Source: a virus
Direction: 5' to 3' (one strand)
Virus record (IMG/VR): IMGVR_UViG_3300033153_004893
Coordinates: 1 to 36,021 of that record
Length of the DNA stretch: 36,021 bases
Positions 27,713 to 36,021 of the stretch are shown here, one piece after another. Position 1 is the stretch's first letter, and each line of letters begins with the position of its first letter. The position numbers were made by a program, and so were the translations under genes. The notes beneath the pieces were generated by a model. The model had not been told where the DNA came from. It did no database searches and saw only the letters and a list, made by a program, of their open reading frames with translations.

Positions 27713-28234
27713 ATGAGTTTATCTAGTTGGTTCAAGGGTTTGTTTAATAAAAAAAGAAAGAAGGAAAGAGCCCCAACGGTTCCGATAGAAATCCCAGCAG
27801 ATGAGACAAAGCCAATGTGGTTTGAATTAGCTAGGGATGAGATCGGAGTAAAGGAGGCTATCGGTCCACTCAACAACCCAAGGATAGTTGAGTACCACAG
27901 GGCTACAAGCTTACATGCAACAAAAGACTCGGTGCCATGGTGCGCATCGTTTGTAAGCTCCATGCTAGAATCGTGTAAAATCAATAGCACAAGATCAGCT
28001 AGAGCTAGAAGCTATGAGCATTGGGGGGTTGAATTAGATGAGCCTAGGCTTGGCTGCATAGTTGTGTTTTATCGCGGCTCAAAAAGATCAGGCAAAGGCC
28101 ACGTTGGATTTTACGCAGGAGAAAGAGGCGGCAAAATATTGGTTCTTGGTGGTAATCAGGGCGATGCTGTCAATGTCTCACCATATTCAAAAAAGCGCCT
28201 GCTATCATACCGATGGCCAAATATGATAAAATAA
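27713..28234 (+). CDS. Endolysin, NlpC/P60-like peptidase
   Basis: A 173-residue cell-wall hydrolase. A basic, hydrophobic head (SSWFKGLFNKKRKKER) is followed by a cysteine peptidase domain. The nucleophile is Cys77 in VPWCASF, the His is in GKGHVGFYAG (His120) and an Asn lies in LGGNQGD (Asn138). The spacing fits the TIGR02594-type phage family that cuts peptidoglycan cross-links. There is no signal peptide, so release would need a holin, for which 27441-27677 is a candidate. AGAGGG precedes ATG. Confidence 0.9.
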   Translation: MSLSSWFKGLFNKKRKKERAPTVPIEIPADETKPMWFELARDEIGVKEAIGPLNNPRIVEYHRATSLHATKDSVPWCASFVSSMLESCKINSTRSARARSYEHWGVELDEPRLGCIVVFYRGSKRSGKGHVGFYAGERGGKILVLGGNQGDAVNVSPYSKKRLLSYRWPNMIK

Positions 28235-28257
28235 AGCGATTCTCATTTTCTCTCTTT

Positions 28258-28287
28258 GTGCTACCTCATAATTGCTTGGGGTAGCAC
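28258..28287. other. Hairpin between endolysin and DUF1353 genes
   Basis: GTGCTACC (28258-28265) and GGTAGCAC (28280-28287) form a perfect 8-bp stem with a 14-base loop. No T-run follows, so it is more likely an mRNA-stability or processing element than a terminator. Confidence 0.55.
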
Positions 28288-28304
28288 TATCTTAAGGGGC
28301 AGCT

Positions 28305-28718
28305 ATGAAAACAATTGAGTACAAAGGTGGGTATAAATACCAACTACATGGATCATATTTTGTGATGATAGATCTCAAGCAACCTAAAAACATTGTTACA
28401 GACTATATACATCTAAACCCAAGCGGCCTGCTTGAAATAAAAAGGGGATACTGCTGGGATGGACCAAGTGGCCCAACGATTGACACAAAGAACTTTATGC
28501 GTGGGTCATTGGTGCATGATGTTCTTTACCAATTAATGAGATACGATCATTTAAATCGTGGGAAATTTAGGGCTGTAGCTGATAAAATACTCAGAGAACA
28601 TTGTATTGAAGATGGCATGGGTAGATTTAGAGCTTGGATAGTTTATCATGGTGTTCAATTTGGTGGTGAAAAAGCATCAAAGGCATCAAGTAGAAAAAAA
28701 GTAATAACGGCACCATAG
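28305..28718 (+). CDS. DUF1353 family protein
   Basis: A 137-residue protein. GYCWDGPSGPTIDTKNFM, then RGSLVHDVLYQLMR, is the hallmark of DUF1353, and the His/Asp of VHD plus the upstream Asp could form a metal-bound site. The family is common in phage lysis regions, and its biochemical role is not established. AAGGGG precedes ATG. Confidence 0.85.
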   Translation: MKTIEYKGGYKYQLHGSYFVMIDLKQPKNIVTDYIHLNPSGLLEIKRGYCWDGPSGPTIDTKNFMRGSLVHDVLYQLMRYDHLNRGKFRAVADKILREHCIEDGMGRFRAWIVYHGVQFGGEKASKASSRKKVITAP

Positions 28719-28728
28719 GAGGATGAGA

Positions 28729-29289
28729 ATGAGAAGGGATTTTATAGTATACAATGATATTCATGTAGGCGCTTTGTACGAGATGAGTATGGAGCTTGAA
28801 AGAGGGGCTATCTACAATGGAGATATTTTTGATATTTCTGGTGCCTTAAGAAAAGAATTGCCTCTCATTAAGAAGAGACAACAAGATTTAGAGAATTTTG
28901 CTGGTGATAGATACAATCACGGGAATCATGAATGCTCAAAAAGATCACTGATAGATTATCATATCGACCAAAATGTTTTATTCATGCATGGACATGTTCA
29001 AATGTGGGCAATGGCAAAGAATATTAAGTGGGCAAACAAGCGCCACGGTTCTGGTAAATGGAAAAGAAGAGCCAGCATGTGGTTTAATAAAGCTAGGTTA
29101 GTAAAGCCTGTCACCCTAAAGATGGAGACATTGGATAGGTGTTGGGAACTAGCTAAGGCTAAGGGTTGTGATGTGGTTATCTTAGGCCACTCTCACCCAA
29201 CTAGAGTTGTTGATGAAACGTACACAAGGCTAGGGAAAACTGTCAGGGTTATGATTTTACCTAGAGGTAGAAATCAAATAACTGTATAG
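28729..29289 (+). CDS. Calcineurin-like metallophosphoesterase
   Basis: A 186-residue phosphoesterase. It has DIH (Asp10, His12), GDIFD (Asp32), GNHE (Asn66, His67) and a C-terminal LGHSHP, the ordered metal-binding motifs of the calcineurin-like superfamily. The substrate may be a phosphoprotein, nucleotide or nucleic acid. The Met at 28729 is preferred over 28723 because AGGAGG lies 6 bases before it. It lies between the DUF1353 gene and a terminator. Substrate unknown. Confidence 0.9.
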   Translation: MRRDFIVYNDIHVGALYEMSMELERGAIYNGDIFDISGALRKELPLIKKRQQDLENFAGDRYNHGNHECSKRSLIDYHIDQNVLFMHGHVQMWAMAKNIKWANKRHGSGKWKRRASMWFNKARLVKPVTLKMETLDRCWELAKAKGCDVVILGHSHPTRVVDETYTRLGKTVRVMILPRGRNQITV

Positions 29290-29306
29290 TATAACCCCAG
29301 TTCATT

Positions 29307-29340
29307 TAGCATCCTGAATTAATTTTTAGGGTGCTATTTT
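29307..29340 (+). terminator. Terminator after the phosphoesterase gene
   Basis: TAGCATCCT (29307-29315) pairs with AGGGTGCTA (29328-29336), 9 bp with one G-T pair, and TTTT follows at 29337-29340. It ends or attenuates the main rightward transcript before the last two small genes. Confidence 0.65.
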
Positions 29341-29356
29341 ACATTTGAGGCAAACT

Positions 29357-29713
29357 ATGAAAAAATTGACATATAGAAATAAGAAATACCTCGAATACAT
29401 CAGAAGCCTCACATGTTGTGCTACGGGCGATGATTGGAATGTTGTTGCTCATCATGTGAGGATTGGTCAAGGCGGGGGCATGGGATTAAAGCCTAGTGAT
29501 TATAGGTGTATCCCATTAACAGCTGATCAACATGGAGCACTACACCAAATGGGCGAAAGAACATACTACAACAATTTTCAGGTCGATCCTGATGTTGAAA
29601 TGTCAGATAATTTACAAAGTTATTTAATCAGAACACTAGAAGACATGGAGCCAAGCGAGAAGGTTGTGCTGCTAGAAAAATTGATCGAACTAGCAGAAGA
29701 TGAGAACGCATAA
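29357..29713 (+). CDS. HNH-like nuclease (DUF968/recombination-nuclease type)
   Basis: A 118-residue protein starting MKKLTYRNKKY. Cys20-Cys21, the His pair in VVAHHVR, GGGMGLKPSDY, a Cys in RCIPL and DQHGALH give the pattern of small phage nucleases of the DUF968/Ref-like sort. The C-terminal helix (PSEKVVLLEKLIELAEDE) is copied in the next small gene. TTGAGG lies 6 bases before ATG; an upstream TTG start is less likely. A DNA-processing role is inferred. Confidence 0.72.
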   Translation: MKKLTYRNKKYLEYIRSLTCCATGDDWNVVAHHVRIGQGGGMGLKPSDYRCIPLTADQHGALHQMGERTYYNNFQVDPDVEMSDNLQSYLIRTLEDMEPSEKVVLLEKLIELAEDENA

Positions 29714-29727
29714 ATCTAGAGGTCATC

Positions 29728-29886
29728 ATGTCTGAAGATTTAGAGAAATATCGCTTTGATCCAAAAATTGAAGATGTGGTGAGCCTGTTGAGTCATTTGA
29801 GGTCACTGCTTAGGAAAATAAAGCATGAGGAAAAAATTGCTCTGCTAGAAAAATGCATTGCCCTAGCAGAGCGTGAGATTAATTAA
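29728..29886 (+). CDS. 52-residue helical protein related to the HNH tail
   Basis: A short frame starting MSEDLEKYRF. Its end (HEEKIALLEKCIALAEREIN) resembles the last helix of the upstream nuclease (SEKVVLLEKLIELAED). It may therefore be a stand-alone copy of that tail, for example a partner or dominant regulator. AGAGGT lies 4 bases before ATG. Its stop overlaps the SSB stop on the other strand, marking the junction of the two genome arms. Confidence 0.66.
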   Translation: MSEDLEKYRFDPKIEDVVSLLSHLRSLLRKIKHEEKIALLEKCIALAEREIN

Positions 29887-30290
29887 AAAGGTACATCGTC
29901 CACGCTAGGCTCTTGATATCCATCTTGTTGGTAATTATACCCATCAGATTGATTATTATCACTTTGGGTATTTCTACTCAAAAATGTAACATTATGCGCT
30001 ATAAGCTCCGTATTGTATCTTTTCGCACCTTGTTGATCTTCCCAAGTTCTAGTTTTCATTTTCCCCTCAACTAAAACCTGCGCTCCTTTTTGAAGATACT
30101 TAGCACAATTCTCGGCCTGAGCTTTCCAAGCGACAACCTCGAACCATTCTGTTGATTCGATCATCTCACCCTGAGCGTTTTTATGCTTCTCACCTACCGC
30201 CACACTAAATGATGTCACCGGTGTTTGGCTTTGGGTGTATCTTAGCTCTGGATCTTTGCCTAAGTGGCCCATTATTATCGTTAAATTCAT
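29883..30290 (-). CDS. ssb: Single-stranded DNA-binding protein
   Basis: A 135-residue OB-fold SSB. NLTIIMGHLGKDPELRYT begins the fold. STEWFEVVAWKAQAENCAKYL and GAQVLVEGKMKTRTWEDQ continue it. A Gln/Asn/Tyr-rich linker then leads to the acidic tip (DDVPF) that docks partner proteins in bacterial SSBs. The Met at 30290 is chosen because GGAGAAACT lies directly before it and the ATG overlaps the upstream stop. It is the last gene of the leftward replication block. Confidence 0.95.
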   Translation of the reverse strand: MNLTIIMGHLGKDPELRYTQSQTPVTSFSVAVGEKHKNAQGEMIESTEWFEVVAWKAQAENCAKYLQKGAQVLVEGKMKTRTWEDQQGAKRYNTELIAHNVTFLSRNTQSDNNQSDGYNYQQDGYQEPSVDDVPF

Positions 30291-30315
30291 AGTTTCTCCA
30301 ATTTGTTTAAAGCTT
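30286..30315. repeat. 30-bp repeat copy A at a gene junction
   Basis: Nearly identical (one mismatch) to 30555-30584. On the minus strand each copy codes the EALNKLEKL-type end of one gene, then the GGAGAAA site and the ATG of the next gene, so a whole translation junction was duplicated with the coding end. Confidence 0.9.
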
Positions 30316-30559
30316 CCGTGCATATGTTAATATTTGCGTGAAATGCTGGCTGATTTCTACTGTCTAAAATATTTATTGAGGCCTCAATAACCTCAATCAT
30401 TGCAAGCACATCACTATGGGTAAGGTTTTTGAGAAATTCAACCCTAGTATTCCACCAAGTGCAAGCAGCTGCATGGGGGTAAAATTCACAGTTACAAAGT
30501 TGTTGGTTATCCGCATCCATGAAGTCATTTGCTGCTTTTTTTATTTTCCCAAGGTTCAT
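30287..30559 (-). CDS. Hypothetical protein, ALNKLEKL-type paralogue 1
   Basis: A 90-residue product starting MNLGKIKKAANDFM. A Cys cluster (LCNCEF, then AACTWW) precedes a helical half with LAMIEVIEASINI and the EALNKLEKL end. The ATG overlaps the upstream stop (ATGA) and GGAGAAATT precedes it. Residues about 45 onward resemble the next upstream product. Function unknown; it lies between the initiator and SSB. Confidence 0.7.
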   Translation of the reverse strand: MNLGKIKKAANDFMDADNQQLCNCEFYPHAAACTWWNTRVEFLKNLTHSDVLAMIEVIEASINILDSRNQPAFHANINICTEALNKLEKL

Positions 30560-30584
30560 AATTTCTCCAATTTGTTTAAAGCTT
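30555..30584. repeat. 30-bp repeat copy B at a gene junction
   Basis: Copy of 30286-30315 with one mismatch (A at 30561 for G at 30292). It spans the end of the 30556-30834 gene and the start signals of the 30287-30559 gene. Confidence 0.9.
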
Positions 30585-30834
30585 TTCCAATATCTTCCAT
30601 AGCCCATCTAGCTTGGTAATCTGTCTGTCTTTCAAAGGTGCTCTTGGTTGCCTCCACAACATCAAGCATCGCTAGGATTATTAAAGATAGGCTGTTATTG
30701 CCTCTATAGCACTTATCGCACGCGCAACCATCTCTAAGAGTGTGGTCATATAAAGGCTCAATGTAATATGGGCTTCTTTTGTCGTATACGCATAGGTTTG
30801 CTAGTGCGGTTTGGTGTATTACTTCAATTTCCAT
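30556..30834 (-). CDS. Hypothetical protein, ALNKLEKL-type paralogue 2
   Basis: A 92-residue product starting MEIEVIHQTALANL. CACDKC marks a likely zinc site, followed by LIILAMLDVVEATKSTF and the GKALNKLEKL end shared with paralogue 1. GGGGGTAAAT precedes the ATG at 30834; a TTG four codons earlier is less likely. Function unknown. Confidence 0.7.
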   Translation of the reverse strand: MEIEVIHQTALANLCVYDKRSPYYIEPLYDHTLRDGCACDKCYRGNNSLSLIILAMLDVVEATKSTFERQTDYQARWAMEDIGKALNKLEKL

Positions 30835-30836
30835 AT

Positions 30837-31007
30837 TTACCCCCAAACCCTATAGGCCACAAAAAGCAGCATAATAAACGGGACGTAAAACAAAAATTTA
30901 GGATCAACTTCCATTCTTGGGTCAAGAACTACACCAACAAACGCAATTAACATCAAAGCAGCCCAAGGCACCGAAATACATAATAATACCCAGTCAAATA
31001 TTGTCAT
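30837..31007 (-). CDS. 56-residue protein with two membrane spans
   Basis: A short frame starting MTIFDWVLLC. One span covers about residues 6-28, a short Asp/Lys loop follows, and a second span (FYVPFIMLLFV) covers 38-53. A consensus GGAGG lies about 9 bases before the ATG, and the stop is 2 bases before the next gene's ATG. It fills a gap in the replication block. Function unknown; membrane tethering of replication or superinfection effects are guesses. Confidence 0.66.
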   Translation of the reverse strand: MTIFDWVLLCISVPWAALMLIAFVGVVLDPRMEVDPKFLFYVPFIMLLFVAYRVWG

Positions 31008-31074
31008 TTCTCATTTCCTCCAAAACCGCACGTACACGGCTTAAATTAATAAATCAATACCCACACACCTAAAA

Positions 31075-31953
31075 TCAATCCAACCCCCCACCGATCGGCT
31101 CTGTGTCAACCTCACAAGGTATATCGTGATCAAACTCCCTCACGTATTCCAATTCTTTATCCTTTCTCCTCTTTTGCTTCCTTTCGTACCCTTCAGAATA
31201 ATAATTTCCTGTCTCGGCCATTGAATGCTTAAACCAGCCAACATTGGATTTGATTTTCAAGTGATCTAAAGCCCCTACTTTCAAATCATGTAAAAAATGG
31301 AGACAAGAAATAAACAAAACCCGCCCGTCAATTTCTCTGTCAACAGCCCAAAGCAGATCCTTTTCTGACAACATGAAATCTTGGGCTCTCATCTCATCAA
31401 AAAATTCTGGTGTAAACCTATCCGAAAAAGTAGGAGGGACTGGTGGGTGGTTTCTTTCTTTCTTACCTTCTTCCCTTCTTTCTTTCTTAGGGGCTTGTAA
31501 GTTGTTAGAAATCATTGACGTATTCGGAAGCTCGTGTTCGCGTCGTGTTCGCGCAATGTTGGTCCGTGTTCGCGTCGTGTTCGCGCATTGTTCGTCGTGT
31601 GTGTTTCTCATGTTCGTAGTATTAGCATTGCCTTGATATATTTCCCAATTACATACACTTACAACAATACCTCGTGTTTGTTTCGTGATCTTTATACGTT
31701 CGGTTTCTTCTAAATATTTCAGTAAATTTTTTAATTTTGTTCGCTTAATTTTTATACAATCTGACAGTTCAGTGACTACATAATAGGCATCTCCAGACTG
31801 AAGTTGTACTTGTTTCAATCCAATTTTTATCTTTCTTGGCTTCCATTTCGCTTCAACTAAGATCTTGCACCACAACCCAAGCAACAATAGATCATCGCCT
31901 ATATCGCTTTCAATCATCGACCTGTAAACTTTAACCCAAGAATTATCTGACAT
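31075..31953 (-). CDS. O-like phage replication initiator
   Basis: A 292-residue protein. The N-terminal domain (NSWVKVYRSMIESDIGDDLLL ... VVSVCNWEIYQ, about 1-108) is a winged helix of the phage replisome-organiser type. A polar linker (110-175) follows, then a C-terminal helical domain (TPEFFDEMRAQDFMLSEKDLLW) with a basic tail. It would bind an origin and load the host helicase. The DNA of the linker holds four 11-bp iterons (31532-31585) and a pyrimidine-rich tract (31451-31488), as in lambda O. ATGAGGT upstream of ATG is the ribosome-binding site and part of a folding switch. Confidence 0.85.
   Translation of the reverse strand: MSDNSWVKVYRSMIESDIGDDLLLLGLWCKILVEAKWKPRKIKIGLKQVQLQSGDAYYVVTELSDCIKIKRTKLKNLLKYLEETERIKITKQTRGIVVSVCNWEIYQGNANTTNMRNTHDEQCANTTRTRTNIARTRREHELPNTSMISNNLQAPKKERREEGKKERNHPPVPPTFSDRFTPEFFDEMRAQDFMLSEKDLLWAVDREIDGRVLFISCLHFLHDLKVGALDHLKIKSNVGWFKHSMAETGNYYSEGYERKQKRRKDKELEYVREFDHDIPCEVDTEPIGGGLD
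31451..31488. other. Strand-asymmetric pyrimidine tract beside the iterons
   Basis: Thirty-eight bases of plus-strand T/C with a single A (31465), so the initiator-coding strand is almost pure purine. Such tracts sit next to the iterons in lambda-type origins and ease unwinding. It codes the KKERREEGKKER-type part of the initiator linker. Confidence 0.6.
31532..31585. repeat. Four 11-bp iterons, candidate replication origin
   Basis: TCGTGTTCGCG occurs at 31532-31542, 31543-31553 and 31575-31585, and once with C for the first T at 31564-31574. They form two pairs 32 bp apart, inside a longer 28-bp repeat (31533-31560 and 31565-31592, one mismatch). The block is GC-rich in an AT-rich genome and lies in the linker-coding part of the O-like gene. 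Confidence 0.75.
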
Positions 31954-31960
31954 GCATTTA

Positions 31961-32017
31961 CCTCATAAGTTAATTGACAGCTGAACAGCAATGAGGCATA
32001 AAAAGAAGGCCTCATAA
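31961..32017 (-). promoter_or_regulatory. Competing-pair switch at the initiator ribosome-binding site
   Basis: Read on the minus strand, the leader contains ATGAGGC (32015-32009), then GCCTCAT (31997-31991), then ATGAGG (31966-31961), which is the ribosome-binding site. The middle GCCTCAT can pair with the upstream copy (7 bp, leaving the site free) or with the site itself (6 bp, hiding it). An RNA binding the upstream copy would switch the initiator off. Confidence 0.55.
31974..32002 (+). promoter_or_regulatory. Promoter for the antisense small RNA
   Basis: TTGACA (31974-31979), a 17-bp spacer and CATAAA (31997-32002). The -35 is perfect and the -10 matches four of six. RNA would begin near 32009. 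The -10 sits inside the ATGAGGC/GCCTCAT inverted repeat. Confidence 0.55.
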
Positions 32018-32090
32018 TCGGGTTTAAACTCCAAGGTTCTTACTCGTGGCTAAAACCCGAACAAAGCTGCCAACGCTGTTCGGGTTTTTT
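32009..32090 (+). ncRNA. Predicted ~80-nt antisense RNA opposite the initiator leader
   Basis: Between the promoter at 31974-32002 and the terminator ending at 32090 lies no plausible coding frame. The RNA would begin GGCCTCATAATCGGG and end in a 12-bp terminator. It is complementary to the predicted initiator mRNA leader from about 32081 to 32009, including its ATGAGGC segment, and its CCTCATAA also matches the initiator ribosome-binding site TTATGAGG at 31968-31961. Position and direction correspond to lambda OOP RNA, and the logic resembles plasmid copy-control RNAs. Not experimentally known; the call rests on promoter, terminator and complementarity. Confidence 0.5.
32052..32090 (+). terminator. 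Strong rho-independent terminator of the small RNA
   Basis: AAAACCCGAACA (32052-32063) pairs with TGTTCGGGTTTT (32077-32088) as a 12-bp stem, and the T-run continues to 32090. The segment TCGGGTTT at 32018-32025 can also pair with the first arm, giving an alternative fold. Read leftward it is a hairpin followed by TTTT. Confidence 0.82.
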
Positions 32091-32116
32091 ATATCTTAAT
32101 AAAAAATTTATTGCAA
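32088..32116 (-). promoter_or_regulatory. Candidate promoter for the replication initiator
   Basis: On the minus strand, TTGCAA (32116-32111), a 17-bp spacer and TATAAA (32093-32088). RNA would begin near 32081, inside the stem of the small-RNA terminator, giving a leader of about 130 bases before the initiator ATG. The surrounding DNA is AT-rich, so this is a moderate call. Confidence 0.4.
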
Positions 32117-32144
32117 TCACCGCACAATTAAATTATTAAAGAGT

Positions 32145-32172
32145 CTAATACTTCTCCCGAAAGTAGTATTAG
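32145..32172. other. Hairpin in the ERF-initiator gap
   Basis: CTAATACT (32145-32152) and AGTATTAG (32165-32172) form a perfect 8-bp stem with a 12-base loop. No T-run in either direction. It lies just past the terminator of the annealing-protein gene and could be a protein site or RNA-stability element. Confidence 0.5.
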
Positions 32173-32175
32173 CTC

Positions 32176-32230
32176 AAAAACTAGGTGCCATGTAATACGT
32201 CTTGTTGTAGCTCTGTCGTAGTACATGGCA
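32176..32230 (-). terminator. Terminator after the ERF annealing-protein gene
   Basis: A 13-bp stem with one mismatch (32218-32230 with 32186-32198, loop of 19) begins 5 bases after the stop. On the minus strand it is followed by CCTAGTTTTT. TTTT also flanks it in the rightward sense. This suggests the initiator is transcribed from its own promoter rather than only from the upstream genes. Confidence 0.6.
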
Positions 32231-32235
32231 TTTTG

Positions 32236-32949
32236 TTATTCTGGTGGTTTCACAACCATCGCCTTGGCTTCTTGGTAGTATTTCCTTAAGGCTGATATGT
32301 CACTGGCTTCCAACTTTTCCAAAGGCTTTTGCAAGAACGCCTGCAAATCTCCCTTTGTTATCCCAAGTGTGTCAAATGCCGCTATCGTCCCGTTCAGATC
32401 AAATGGTTTCACTTGCTGCTTTTGTTGATTCTGCTTGGGTTTTTGCTGTTGATTTCCATTATTTTGGTTGTAATTACCTTGTCTTTGGTTGTTGACAGGC
32501 TGTTGATTTCCTTTTCCACTGGCCGCGTTGCCATCATCATCGCCATCAGTAGCAATACCAACCATAGCACTAAGGGCATATCTCTTGAGGTAAGAAATCG
32601 CACTACCAACGCTTTGAGGGTCTTGCTTTTTCGTTTCAACAGCGAAAGAGCTAGCAATAAACTCATTAGAACTATGAGTAAGAATAGTAACAAGCCCGAT
32701 GGTTGGGGGCTTTCCTGTAGGTAACTGGGTGATTGCGAGTTCATTATCTGCTAGCTCCTTTCGACAAGCTCTCCATACTGATGCGAGATCAGCATATTTT
32801 GATTTATAAAATGGGTTGCTGGAATCCCTAGACGCGGCTTCCATTAGAGCTTGGGCCTTTGAAAGAGCTAGAGACAACTTCCCTATTGTTGGAGACATCT
32901 CGTACCCAAGTGGTGATTTTATGACTAATTCATTTTTGACAGTATCCAT
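32236..32949 (-). CDS. ERF-superfamily single-strand annealing protein
   Basis: A 237-residue recombinase that anneals complementary strands during phage recombination. NPFYKSKYADLASVWRACR, LVTILTHSSNEFI and VGSAISYLKRYALSAMVGI, then ATDGDDDGN, are the core ERF motifs (about residues 45-145). A Gln/Asn-rich linker and a small C-terminal helical domain follow. AAGGAGGTTGAGGA precedes ATG, and it overlaps the HTH gene by 25 bases. No partner exonuclease is seen in the window. Confidence 0.92.
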   Translation of the reverse strand: MDTVKNELVIKSPLGYEMSPTIGKLSLALSKAQALMEAASRDSSNPFYKSKYADLASVWRACRKELADNELAITQLPTGKPPTIGLVTILTHSSNEFIASSFAVETKKQDPQSVGSAISYLKRYALSAMVGIATDGDDDGNAASGKGNQQPVNNQRQGNYNQNNGNQQQKPKQNQQKQQVKPFDLNGTIAAFDTLGITKGDLQAFLQKPLEKLEASDISALRKYYQEAKAMVVKPPE

Positions 32950-33122
32950 TCCTCAACCTCCTTCCTTGGCCATAAGTTCCGACCATTGGCTACCTTAATT
33001 GGTTCTACTAGATAGCCATCTTTGACCCACCTATAAATACTCCGCTTTGTAACCTTCAATAATCTGGCTAGCTCATCCGTTGTGAGAAACCCCTTTTCAG
33101 GCATCACTTCCTCTTTTATCAT
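32925..33122 (-). CDS. Helix-turn-helix DNA-binding protein (excisionase/AlpA-like)
   Basis: A 65-residue protein. FLTTDELARLLKVTKRSIYRWVKDGYL and RNLWPRKEVEEWI form the MerR-like winged helix of excisionase/AlpA family proteins. With no integrase present it is more likely a regulator than a recombination factor. AGGAG lies 5 bases before the ATG at 33122; Met7 with GAGGAAGTG is an alternative. It is the first gene of the replication block. Confidence 0.85.
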   Translation of the reverse strand: MIKEEVMPEKGFLTTDELARLLKVTKRSIYRWVKDGYLVEPIKVANGRNLWPRKEVEEWILSKMN

Positions 33123-33274
33123 ACTATCTCCTGTGATATTTGATGCTAAACTATGTCAACACATGAAATATAAAGAAACGTTTTCATCAATTCAAGTATT
33201 ATTTTATTAATTAAATTGTATATGCTATAAGGTACTAAGAGCTTTGAATAATTATTAAGAAAATAGGTTGGGAT
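33123..33274. promoter_or_regulatory. Divergent control region between HTH and ribbon-helix-helix genes
   Basis: A leftward TTGACA lies at 33159-33154 with a poor -10 (TATCAC, spacer 15). Rightward, an extended -10 TGCTATAAG lies at 33223-33231 with a weak -35. The short inverted repeat ATGT..ACAT (33153-33164) overlaps the leftward -35, and the palindrome AAACGTTT lies at 33176-33183. These are plausible operators for one or both regulators; none is proven. Confidence 0.45.
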
Positions 33275-33463
33275 ATGGCAAAAGTTGGTAGAAGAGAAAA
33301 GAAAATTGAGGATAAAGTAGAGGTTTTAAGCATCGGAGTTTTACCAGAACAAAAGGTACAACTAAAGATATTGGCTAAGAACCAAAAAAAATCCCTAAGT
33401 AAATTACTCAGAGATTATATAGATAATATCTTGCTTGTTAATAGCGTGGAAGATGCTAGCTAG
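33275..33463 (+). CDS. Ribbon-helix-helix transcriptional regulator
   Basis: A 62-residue protein. A basic head is followed by VEVLSIGVLPEQKVQLKIL, KNQKKSLSKLLRDYIDNIL, i.e. one beta-strand and two helices of the Arc/CopG fold. It would bind DNA as a dimer, the strand in the major groove. It is the only clear protein gene facing rightward in the leftward arm and is divergent from the HTH gene, as expected for a switch or auto-repressor. The ribosome-binding site is weak (AGGTTGGGAT). It converges with the next gene with an 8-base overlap. Confidence 0.75.
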   Translation: MAKVGRREKKIEDKVEVLSIGVLPEQKVQLKILAKNQKKSLSKLLRDYIDNILLVNSVEDAS

Positions 33464-33683
33464 GTGTGTTTTGAATGGTGATATCATCATCTCTGTATAA
33501 TATCTTGCTACCATCGTAGAATAATATCGTGGCTATATCGCTTTCACTGTCTTGCTTTAGTACAAAATCATCTATGTTCTTTTGGATATAATCAAAAATT
33601 TGATTTATCACGGTTATAAAATCAAATTTCCCATCTAATGACCGCACGAAATCAATTGCTTGATTTGCTTGAAAACCGTTCAC
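33456..33683 (-). CDS. Hypothetical acidic protein
   Basis: A 75-residue acidic protein, MNGFQANQAIDFV onward, with helical N-terminal and beta-rich C-terminal parts and no recognised domain. The start is GTG with a consensus GGAGGTGCGCG just before it. It lies between the PP-loop gene and the ribbon-helix-helix regulator. Small acidic phage proteins can be DNA mimics; this is only a possibility. Confidence 0.68.
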   Translation of the reverse strand: MNGFQANQAIDFVRSLDGKFDFITVINQIFDYIQKNIDDFVLKQDSESDIATILFYDGSKILYRDDDITIQNTPS

Positions 33684-33778
33684 CGCGCACCTCCTTATTA
33701 ATATGGATCTTAGCTGTCCACTTATATTAATACTCGGATGATGTGCGGTGAAACTTTAGGTTATTTTGTAAGGTGCGG
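33684..33778. promoter_or_regulatory. Intergenic region with inverted repeat and GTGCGGT copies
   Basis: TTAATAT (33698-33704) and ATATTAA (33724-33730) face each other across 19 bases. GTGCGGT occurs twice on the plus strand near 33742 and 33772, with a related GCGCGGT on the minus strand near the start of the 33456-33683 gene. These could be operator sites for the gene at 33456-33683. No convincing promoter pair was found. Confidence 0.4.
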
Positions 33779-34537
33779 TTAATCCAAGTCTTGTAATTCT
33801 ATTTGGCACAATAAACCACAATCTATATTTGGCTCTTCTTTGTAATTTCCAAAATCAGATGGCATTTCATCAAGAAACAGCCGTTTTCTTTTTCCATCAC
33901 CTGCGTAAGTTTTATTTATTGATACGTCTAGTTTTCTTTCCAGCTCTGCCATCTTCTTGAAGATATCGGGGAAATCGATTCTTATCTTGTTCCAATACCC
34001 TCCTCCACCCTTCACGCAACCGATGCAATTATTGTTCTTGTATCCAAGCGAATACATAAATGGTTTTTTTATTCCGGCCATTTTTAGCAGCGCATGACAA
34101 TCGCCCTTGGTCATTTGCTTGTCGAATAATGGGGTTTCTAGCGTTATTTCTGGATTGTTATTTCTAAATCTTTCAATTCTATTGGCTTCACTAGCGTCAT
34201 ACCCAAAAACCTGAATATCATCAACACGCTGGAAATCATGCCTTAGTTTTTTCTTTAGTTCCGTTGTACACATGGCCCCATGAACACCGACCAACCAACC
34301 CTTGTTAAAGACGTCCCACATGTCTTTGTATTTTTCTGAGTGTAAAATAGTAATTTCATGATCGAACCAAGCTTCACAATCCTTAAGGAATCTAACATTA
34401 TCCTGATGTTCGCTAGAGGTATCTGTATAAATAATATGAATAGGGTTTTTCCCCTTATATTTCTTGATTGCTATCTTAGTTGCAACAGCAGAAGTTATGC
34501 CGCACGAAAACCAACAAACAACACGTCTATCTCCCAC
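33779..34537 (-). CDS. PP-loop / PAPS-reductase-like protein
   Basis: A 252-residue protein of the adenine-nucleotide alpha-hydrolase fold. The PP-loop variant is FSCGITSAVA (residues 10-19, SxGxxS), followed by HIIYTDTSSEH, CTTELKKKLRHDF and NNNCIGCVKGGGGYW, with Cys pairs as in PAPS reductase and DndC-type proteins. Such phage proteins may activate a substrate with ATP, for example in sulfur or nucleotide chemistry, or counter host defence; the reaction here is unknown. Start is GTG with AGGGGG nearby. It lies next to the two lipoprotein genes. Confidence 0.85.
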   Translation of the reverse strand: MGDRRVVCWFSCGITSAVATKIAIKKYKGKNPIHIIYTDTSSEHQDNVRFLKDCEAWFDHEITILHSEKYKDMWDVFNKGWLVGVHGAMCTTELKKKLRHDFQRVDDIQVFGYDASEANRIERFRNNNPEITLETPLFDKQMTKGDCHALLKMAGIKKPFMYSLGYKNNNCIGCVKGGGGYWNKIRIDFPDIFKKMAELERKLDVSINKTYAGDGKRKRLFLDEMPSDFGNYKEEPNIDCGLLCQIELQDLD

Positions 34538-34549
34538 ATTACCCCCTAG

Positions 34550-34915
34550 TTAAAACTTAAGTATTAATCTATCACCAATAAACGGCCAATCATCCAAATA
34601 ATATCCATAGTGCAAAACAACCTCAGAAGCATAAGGTAGGTTGTCTCTGTGAATGTAAATAGCCTCATCACTCTCTAGGGTGACATTGATACCTATATAG
34701 CTGTCATTCTCCTCAAATGGCAGCCAAGCCTCGTTGCTGTAGATATACTGCTGATCCTCAACCTCAGCTAAGACAATCAAAATAGCATCACGGCCAACAT
34801 GCTCCCTATTAACTTCTATTTGAAGATTAACCCCCTCGATGGTTTTAACTTCCGATTCAATGGGAATCATCTTACACCCAACAATTATCATTATTGCTAT
34901 CAGTAAATATTTCAT
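34550..34915 (-). CDS. Small lipoprotein sharing the protease C-terminal domain
   Basis: A 121-residue protein. Residues 1-14 (MKYLLIAIMIIVGC) are a lipoprotein signal with Cys14. The remainder, about 90 residues (EVNREHVGRDAILIVLAEVEDQQ, IHRDNLPYASEVVLHYGYY), matches in order the last 90 residues of the adjacent metzincin (VAPEHVGKEAIKLVAAHLEDQ, FKDNYPYGGEIKLLWGYM). It is thus a catalytic-domain-free partner or paralogue. AAGGAGG precedes ATG. Confidence 0.9.
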   Translation of the reverse strand: MKYLLIAIMIIVGCKMIPIESEVKTIEGVNLQIEVNREHVGRDAILIVLAEVEDQQYIYSNEAWLPFEENDSYIGINVTLESDEAIYIHRDNLPYASEVVLHYGYYLDDWPFIGDRLILKF

Positions 34916-34967
34916 ACATCACCTCCTTATAGGTAGTTATCGGCCGTTAACTTCCAAAAAGTTAGAA

Positions 34968-36021
34968 TTAATTCAAAAAAGTTGTAACTCTGTCATTAAA
35001 ATAGATCTTACCACCGATCATATAGCCCCAAAGAAGCTTAATCTCGCCACCGTATGGGTAATTATCCTTAAAAATTACTGTCGATTCTGTCGTCGTTAGA
35101 ACCTTTTTGCTCCCAATGAGTAAATCACCATCATCAAACTCGGACCAACTACCATCAGAATACAAAAACCACTGATCTTCTAGGTGAGCAGCGACTAACT
35201 TTATTGCTTCCTTGCCAACATGCTCAGGAGCAACCTTCATCTTTAGTTCAATTTTGGTAAAAACATCTACATCAAGCTCAAGTCTTCCATTTTCACCACT
35301 TACATACTTACCCCCATTGTACACAACGGCCTCAAAGCTAACTCTTTCATGCTGAGATGAAACACCAGACCAATTGCCTTTAACGATCCTTTGGTGTTCC
35401 TTTAAATCAACATCAGATAGCCCCAGAGCCTCGCGTAAATTAAGGTGATACATCAATGGGTAATCTTCCCCATCATCACCATCAAGATGCCTAATGCCAA
35501 TTACATGGCCTAATTCGTGAGCAAGTAGATTTGTCATAGCTAACTCATCAAATATGAAATTATACTCACTCTCAATTGCTTGGTTGCCATTGAATAAACT
35601 TTCATTTATCAGGACATTGAAAAAATCGTATACACCTCTTTTTGGAGATCCGGCAGCGCCCATAATTGTTGAGCTGTAACGTGCCCCATATAAAGCATCT
35701 ATAATATCCCCTGTCGCGTCACAGATCACAGGATTATACTTTCTTGTTTTCTTAGGATTGCTGTTAAAAAATGGGATAGATGTGTAACCTGATGGCATTG
35801 AGCTAGCATCCCAAGTGTGATCCTTGTAGTTATCAATATCTATTTCAAAACCTATGTCATCGCCTCTTACAAAACGCCTTGGAGTTCCTTCTATCTTGTT
35901 CCATATGCCTAGAGCATCTTCTATTATCCTCTCTCTTCCATCTTTTCCATATGTCGCAAAGCAGCTTGATTCGAAGTTTAGTACATAATTACCCTCATAC
36001 TGTGGGGCATCGTATACGGTA
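34968..36021 (-). CDS. Metzincin-type metalloprotease lipoprotein (C-terminal and central part)
   Basis: This frame stays open to the window end and continues in frame into 188-115 on the circular map; the right copy lacks only the first 74 bases. The complete chain is 375 residues. HELGHVIGIRH (His193, Glu194, His197, His203) is the HExxHxxGxxH zinc motif of metzincins, and YPLMYH (Met215) fits the Met-turn. The last ~90 residues are a beta domain shared with the neighbouring small lipoprotein. With its lipobox Cys15 it would act as a membrane-anchored protease outside the cytoplasm. Targets are unknown: host surface protein, competitor or predator factors are possibilities. Such a protease is uncommon in phages. 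Confidence 0.92.
   Translation of the reverse strand, partial: TVYDAPQYEGNYVLNFESSCFATYGKDGRERIIEDALGIWNKIEGTPRRFVRGDDIGFEIDIDNYKDHTWDASSMPSGYTSIPFFNSNPKKTRKYNPVICDATGDIIDALYGARYSSTIMGAAGSPKRGVYDFFNVLINESLFNGNQAIESEYNFIFDELAMTNLLAHELGHVIGIRHLDGDDGEDYPLMYHLNLREALGLSDVDLKEHQRIVKGNWSGVSSQHERVSFEAVVYNGGKYVSGENGRLELDVDVFTKIELKMKVAPEHVGKEAIKLVAAHLEDQWFLYSDGSWSEFDDGDLLIGSKKVLTTTESTVIFKDNYPYGGEIKLLWGYMIGGKIYFNDRVTTFLN
35908..36021. repeat. Right copy of exact 114-bp terminal direct repeat
   Basis: Identical to 1-114. It codes the same part of the protease as the left copy and joins seamlessly to it. Confidence 0.97.

Follow-up and report, generated by a model that had tools for sequence, protein, structure and literature searches.

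In our best reading of this phage locus, which we hold with about even confidence, a countertranscribed RNA would free an anti-Shine-Dalgarno element in the leader of a replication initiator gene and thereby shut initiator translation. The locus belongs to an IMG/VR virus record, 36,021 bases long, that was analysed in full and is referred to here as the window; in it, the 282 bases that separate the leftward erf gene from the likewise leftward initiator gene harbour the candidate antisense unit. The predicted RNA of about 80 nt (+, 32009-32090) would start just upstream of the initiator gene, stop at its own terminator, base-pair with the 5' portion of the leftward leader over about 73 nt and limit synthesis of the DnaD/O-like initiator. 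The initial annotation had proposed an antisense limit on the initiator, and this proposal is strengthened by a set of Shine-Dalgarno (SD) elements in the leader, by antisense units in two of three relatives and by iterons in the initiator gene, while the effect on initiator synthesis is still one that we infer.

The two promoter-like elements and the strong terminator described earlier for this gap, TTGACA-17-CATAAA on the plus strand and TTGCAA-17-TATAAA on the opposite strand, are all present at the positions claimed (Table 1). The start of the small RNA at 32009 was placed about 7 nt after the -10 element. The terminator stem is a perfect inverted repeat (32052-32063 and 32077-32088), and its T-run reaches 32090. 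With a score of 16, this terminator is the best in the 36-kb window, compared with 14 for the runner-up and 14 for the best score in ten dinucleotide-shuffled versions of the entire window; a terminator scan with a loop limit of 8 misses the hairpin (32052-32088). The predicted RNA folds more stably than its shuffles (z -3.3 and -3.1), mostly owing to the terminator. The rightward promoter is of ordinary strength, with 51 sites on both strands (72 kb) scoring at least as high under an approximate sigma-70 matrix, and its CATAAA is without the conserved last T of the -10 element. The region 28000-36021 contains 16 promoter-like sites, fewer than the 24.8 expected from shuffles. The Rfam 15 covariance models gave no match above the gathering score in the window and nothing relevant at E values up to 10, and the exact terminator pattern was not found in IMG/VR. 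A coding reading of a short GTG frame from 32046 within the small RNA was dropped; the frame runs through the terminator.

Table 1. Features of the initiator locus and its candidate antisense unit (window positions).
Feature	Position	Strand	Evidence or remark
Initiator gene, DnaD-like helicase loader, 292 aa	31075..31953	-	phrog_2514, E 9.4e-25
Four iterons GCGAACAC in the initiator gene linker	31534..31584	-	probable origin
Putative initiator mRNA leader	31954..32081	-	requires use of the candidate leader promoter
Initiator Shine-Dalgarno (SD) TTATGAGG	31961..31968	-	identical 8-mer at 32010-32017 (-)
Candidate small-RNA promoter TTGACA-17-CATAAA	31974..32002	+	sequence match
Anti-SD TGCCTCAT	31991..31998	-	outside the small RNA; overlaps the -10 region of its promoter
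Anti-anti-SD ATGAGGC	32009..32015	-	exactly at the 5' end of the small RNA
Predicted small RNA (countertranscribed RNA), ~80 nt	32009..32090	+	fold z about -3
Intrinsic terminator, 12-bp perfect stem then six T	32052..32090	+	best in window
Candidate leader promoter TTGCAA-17-TATAAA	32088..32116	-	weak evidence
Erf-like ssDNA annealing protein gene	32236..32949	-	PF04404, E 1.3e-24; phrog_2324; upstream of initiator

On the opposite strand, the promoter proposed for the initiator mRNA is also unremarkable in strength, with 102 sites scoring at least as high (approximate sigma-70 matrix, both strands, 72 kb). Its -10 element occupies the same positions as the T-run of the plus-strand terminator, and both the rightward promoter and that terminator fall in the initiator leader. 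Read-through from erf is an alternative source of the leader transcript. The complementarity between the small RNA and the leader, previously estimated at about 70 bases, amounts to 73 nt (32009-32081), provided that both presumed starts hold. Both RNAs are presumably made, and over this stretch they would be expected to pair in vivo.

A feature that goes beyond the anatomy described earlier, and which is reported here as new, is the ordered set of anti-anti-SD, anti-SD and SD in the leader, of which the anti-SD, as the middle element, is able to pair with either neighbour. In the leader alone, the anti-anti-SD would pair with the anti-SD (AUGAGGC:GCCUCAU), and the SD would stay free. With the RNA start near 32009, the first bases of the small RNA cover the anti-anti-SD exactly and leave the anti-SD free. 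Occupation of the anti-anti-SD by the RNA 5' end would thus release the anti-SD (GCCUCAU), which would close on the SD (AUGAGGU), and initiator translation would be expected to fall as initiator templates multiply. In folding predictions, the 69-nt free 3' end of the leader folds as anti-SD:SD at -9.0 kcal/mol, and with several of the mRNA 3' ends modelled, blocking 32009-32081 makes the SD less open (from 0.60 to 0.21, from 0.56 to 0.20 and from 0.60 to 0.32). The same blocking barely alters SD openness for mRNA ends 20-40 nt into the gene, and for two mRNA ends 70-90 nt into the gene the effect is reversed and the SD opens. A triplet score devised for the three elements reaches 17.5, the top value among 40 window genes (next, 14.5), and only one of 2,000 leaders shuffled upstream of the SD scores as high; because the score was designed after the pattern had been noticed, this statistic is supportive and does not constitute a clean test. 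An SD switch was not found in the leader of a more distant relative, L268.

The initiator also matches, more weakly, phrog_345, annotated as 'replication initiation O-like' (E 1.2e-4). The GCGAACAC copies in its gene form two 11-bp-phased pairs located after the N-terminal domain. In L251, the nearest relative, the initiator gene has three copies of the iteron core, compared with 12 per 1.88 Mb in other fetched sequence; another relative, L315, likewise has the GCGAACAC iterons, and phased repeats of a comparable kind occupy the corresponding gene region in most of the DnaD-like phage initiators examined. These phased iterons and their recurrence in relatives suggest that the replication origin probably lies inside the initiator gene, as in lambda O, and the presence of in-gene iterons confirms the locus as a replicon. 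Between 29883 and 35798 the likely genes are oriented leftward, with a small ribbon-helix-helix-like frame at 33275-33463 (+) as the sole exception, and none of the surrounding genes could be identified as a rightward coding gene served by the terminator at 32090. Because the small RNA would stop at 32090, 146 bases short of the erf end at 32236, and because the surrounding genes are leftward, the initiator leader is its sole evident local target.

The parallel with lambda OOP RNA drawn in the initial annotation stands for place and direction: in both cases the initiator gene contains iterons, and a short self-terminating RNA, predicted here, starts immediately upstream of the gene and heads away from it, against the direction in which the gene is transcribed. 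The parallel does not extend to the target. OOP, an RNA of 77 nt, overlaps cII and acts on it (PMC3985674, PMC3349717), whereas the RNA described here would end 146 bases before erf, outside the upstream gene, and the leader carries a candidate SD switch. Judged by overlap with the upstream gene alone, the small RNA is not an OOP homolog. The same comparison gives rise to the main rival to an antisense RNA, namely that convergent transcription from the rightward promoter, by the in-gene origin, tunes transcription of the initiator and the origin through interference or transcriptional activation, in the manner of lambda pO, and that the RNA is a by-product. We consider this unlikely. With respect to an iteron-containing initiator gene, the rightward promoter has the place and direction of pO, and interference is expected because the two candidate promoters face each other; in lambda, pO lowers pR transcription, loss of pO impairs replication, and OOP is reported not to change O-P mRNA stability (PMC3985674). 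Convergent transcription, however, leaves unexplained the SD/anti-SD/anti-anti-SD set and its register with the RNA start.

Phage DNA similar to the window was not found, and the initiator used as a single-sequence query retrieved no relatives from IMG/VR and GTDB genomes. Alignment searches led to the nearest relative, a contig of a Burkholderiales MAG (L251; initiator 34%, E 9e-24), in which erf is followed by two small genes and the initiator leader. This leader carries a strong antisense terminator, whose hairpin is without any sense-side T-run, together with an antisense promoter-like TTCACA-18-TATCAT (10/12). Separately, positions 2810-2951 of L251, in the initiator leader, contain a 32-nt inverted repeat with alternative partners, and an RNA from the antisense strand across this interval would be about 160 nt long and highly structured. 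The L251 initiator, searched against 399 Burkholderiales genomes, returned only itself. Scanning for the iteron pattern yielded L315, an ortholog of both L251 (phmmer 1.7e-55) and the window initiator (7.6e-16); the other seven of the eight hits were unrelated or uninformative, leaving L315 as the sole ortholog. Its antisense unit combines TTGACT-17-GACAAT with a terminator, weaker than that of L251, at -110 to -89. Directly upstream of the L315 initiator leader (reverse strand) are an integrase-like gene and then, from a reading of the sequence, a tRNA-like 3' end, possibly an attachment site.

In the initiator tree, the window, L251, L315 and G031 form one clade (support 0.955). The promoter-terminator pair that the initial annotation suggested seeking in related phages recurs over the leader in two of the three other clade members, L251 and L315; in G031, which keeps the initiator and the iterons, an antisense terminator over the leader was not found. 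G031 was the sole initiator carrier among 38 terminase-relative records tested, and none of the erf relatives tested had a homologous initiator. The more distant L268 carries a promoter-like site and a terminator on the antisense strand, from which an RNA of about 75 nt with two hairpins would be expected (fold z -4.5); most other initiator-family loci examined were without an antisense terminator. With the window left out and L315 taken at its correct start, an antisense unit lies ahead of 5 of the 64 initiators, compared with 13 of 708 other genes (Fisher p 0.012). The p value is 0.045 without L315 and 0.008 when only genes with an upstream gap are considered, or 0.09 when L251 and L315 are also left out. 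The promoter-terminator unit is modestly enriched before initiators, and terminators alone upstream of initiators showed no enrichment relative to the sense orientation. No sequence homolog of the small RNA was found among the fetched loci. The hairpin upstream of another O-like initiator (L004) was dropped owing to its poor T-run.

These comparisons also bear on the possibility, improbable in our view, that the hairpin is a mere bidirectional terminator between erf and the initiator gene or a roadblock to antisense read-through, and that the rightward promoter is a chance match. The stem is flanked by AAAA and TTTT, which provides a weak leftward U-run (TTTTAG), and equally good promoter-like sites are common in the window. 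Nevertheless, the T-run is better rightward, yet no rightward gene ends there, and the hairpin lies 146 nt beyond the erf stop. The T-run is better on the antisense side in four phages (the window, L251, L268 and L315), the L251 hairpin having none on the sense side, and a bidirectional terminator leaves the L251 and L315 units and the candidate SD switch unexplained. In a further reading, which seems quite improbable, the repeat ATGAGGC-N11-GCCTCAT at the -10/+1 region of the rightward promoter serves as a DNA operator, and the SD-switch reading is wrong even if the RNA exists. In favour of an operator, this perfect 7-bp dyad across the promoter is unique in the window, and small HTH and ribbon-helix-helix-like genes lie 1 kb away; against it, a second dyad copy is absent from the window, and the SD is itself a copy of the half-site. 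The operator and SD-switch readings can, moreover, hold together.

For a countertranscribed RNA acting on a putative SD switch, the plasmids R1 and pT181, cited in the initial annotation, would be functionally closer parallels than OOP. As in pT181 RNAI, R1 CopA, pIP501 RNAIII and pMV158 RNAII, an antisense RNA would lie over the initiator leader with its last hairpin as the terminator, and initiator synthesis is proposed to drop with rising template number. Among these systems, pT181 and pIP501 use transcription attenuation, and R1 uses a leader-peptide block. The present case differs in being a phage with a DnaD/O-like initiator and a proposed SD switch, whereas pMV158 relies on steric hindrance, with RNAII bound immediately ahead of the ribosome site and translation of repB inhibited (PMC4485353). 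In B. subtilis, the antisense RNA ArrA overlaps the dnaA 5' UTR and lowers dnaA mRNA and protein (PMC12112137), which is similar in that an antisense RNA covers the 5' UTR of a replication initiator; it differs in that the gene is chromosomal and the initiator another one, and an SD switch does not appear in the abstract of that report.

Antisense control of initiator dosage is classic in plasmids, and we found little in the literature for phage initiators; the lambda RNA in the corresponding place acts on cII. A new phage variant of plasmid-type antisense control is plausible at this locus. If true, it would be a compact and testable instance of a phage controlling its replication as plasmids do, would make a specific prediction about the SD switch, and would be a reason to scan other phage initiator leaders for sequence-divergent antisense units. 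More tentatively, and with some doubt, we suggest that throughout the clade with DnaD-like initiators and GCGAACAC iterons a plasmid-type countertranscribed RNA may flip an SD switch and control initiator dosage, with the RNA sequences diverging completely and the architecture being kept. In that event, the diverged RNAs could let each phage set its own copy-control specificity.

Several further elements were observed in the surrounding DNA. The early leftward region includes a phosphoadenosine phosphosulfate reductase-like gene at window positions 33779-34537 (phrog_424, E 1.1e-56). Just past the erf stop, a long imperfect inverted repeat (32176-32240; 24 nt, 79%) stands beside a second inverted repeat at 32145-32172. 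At the other end of the gap, a four-codon frame, ATG CAT GTC AGA TAA (31943-31957, -), overlaps the initiator start codon.
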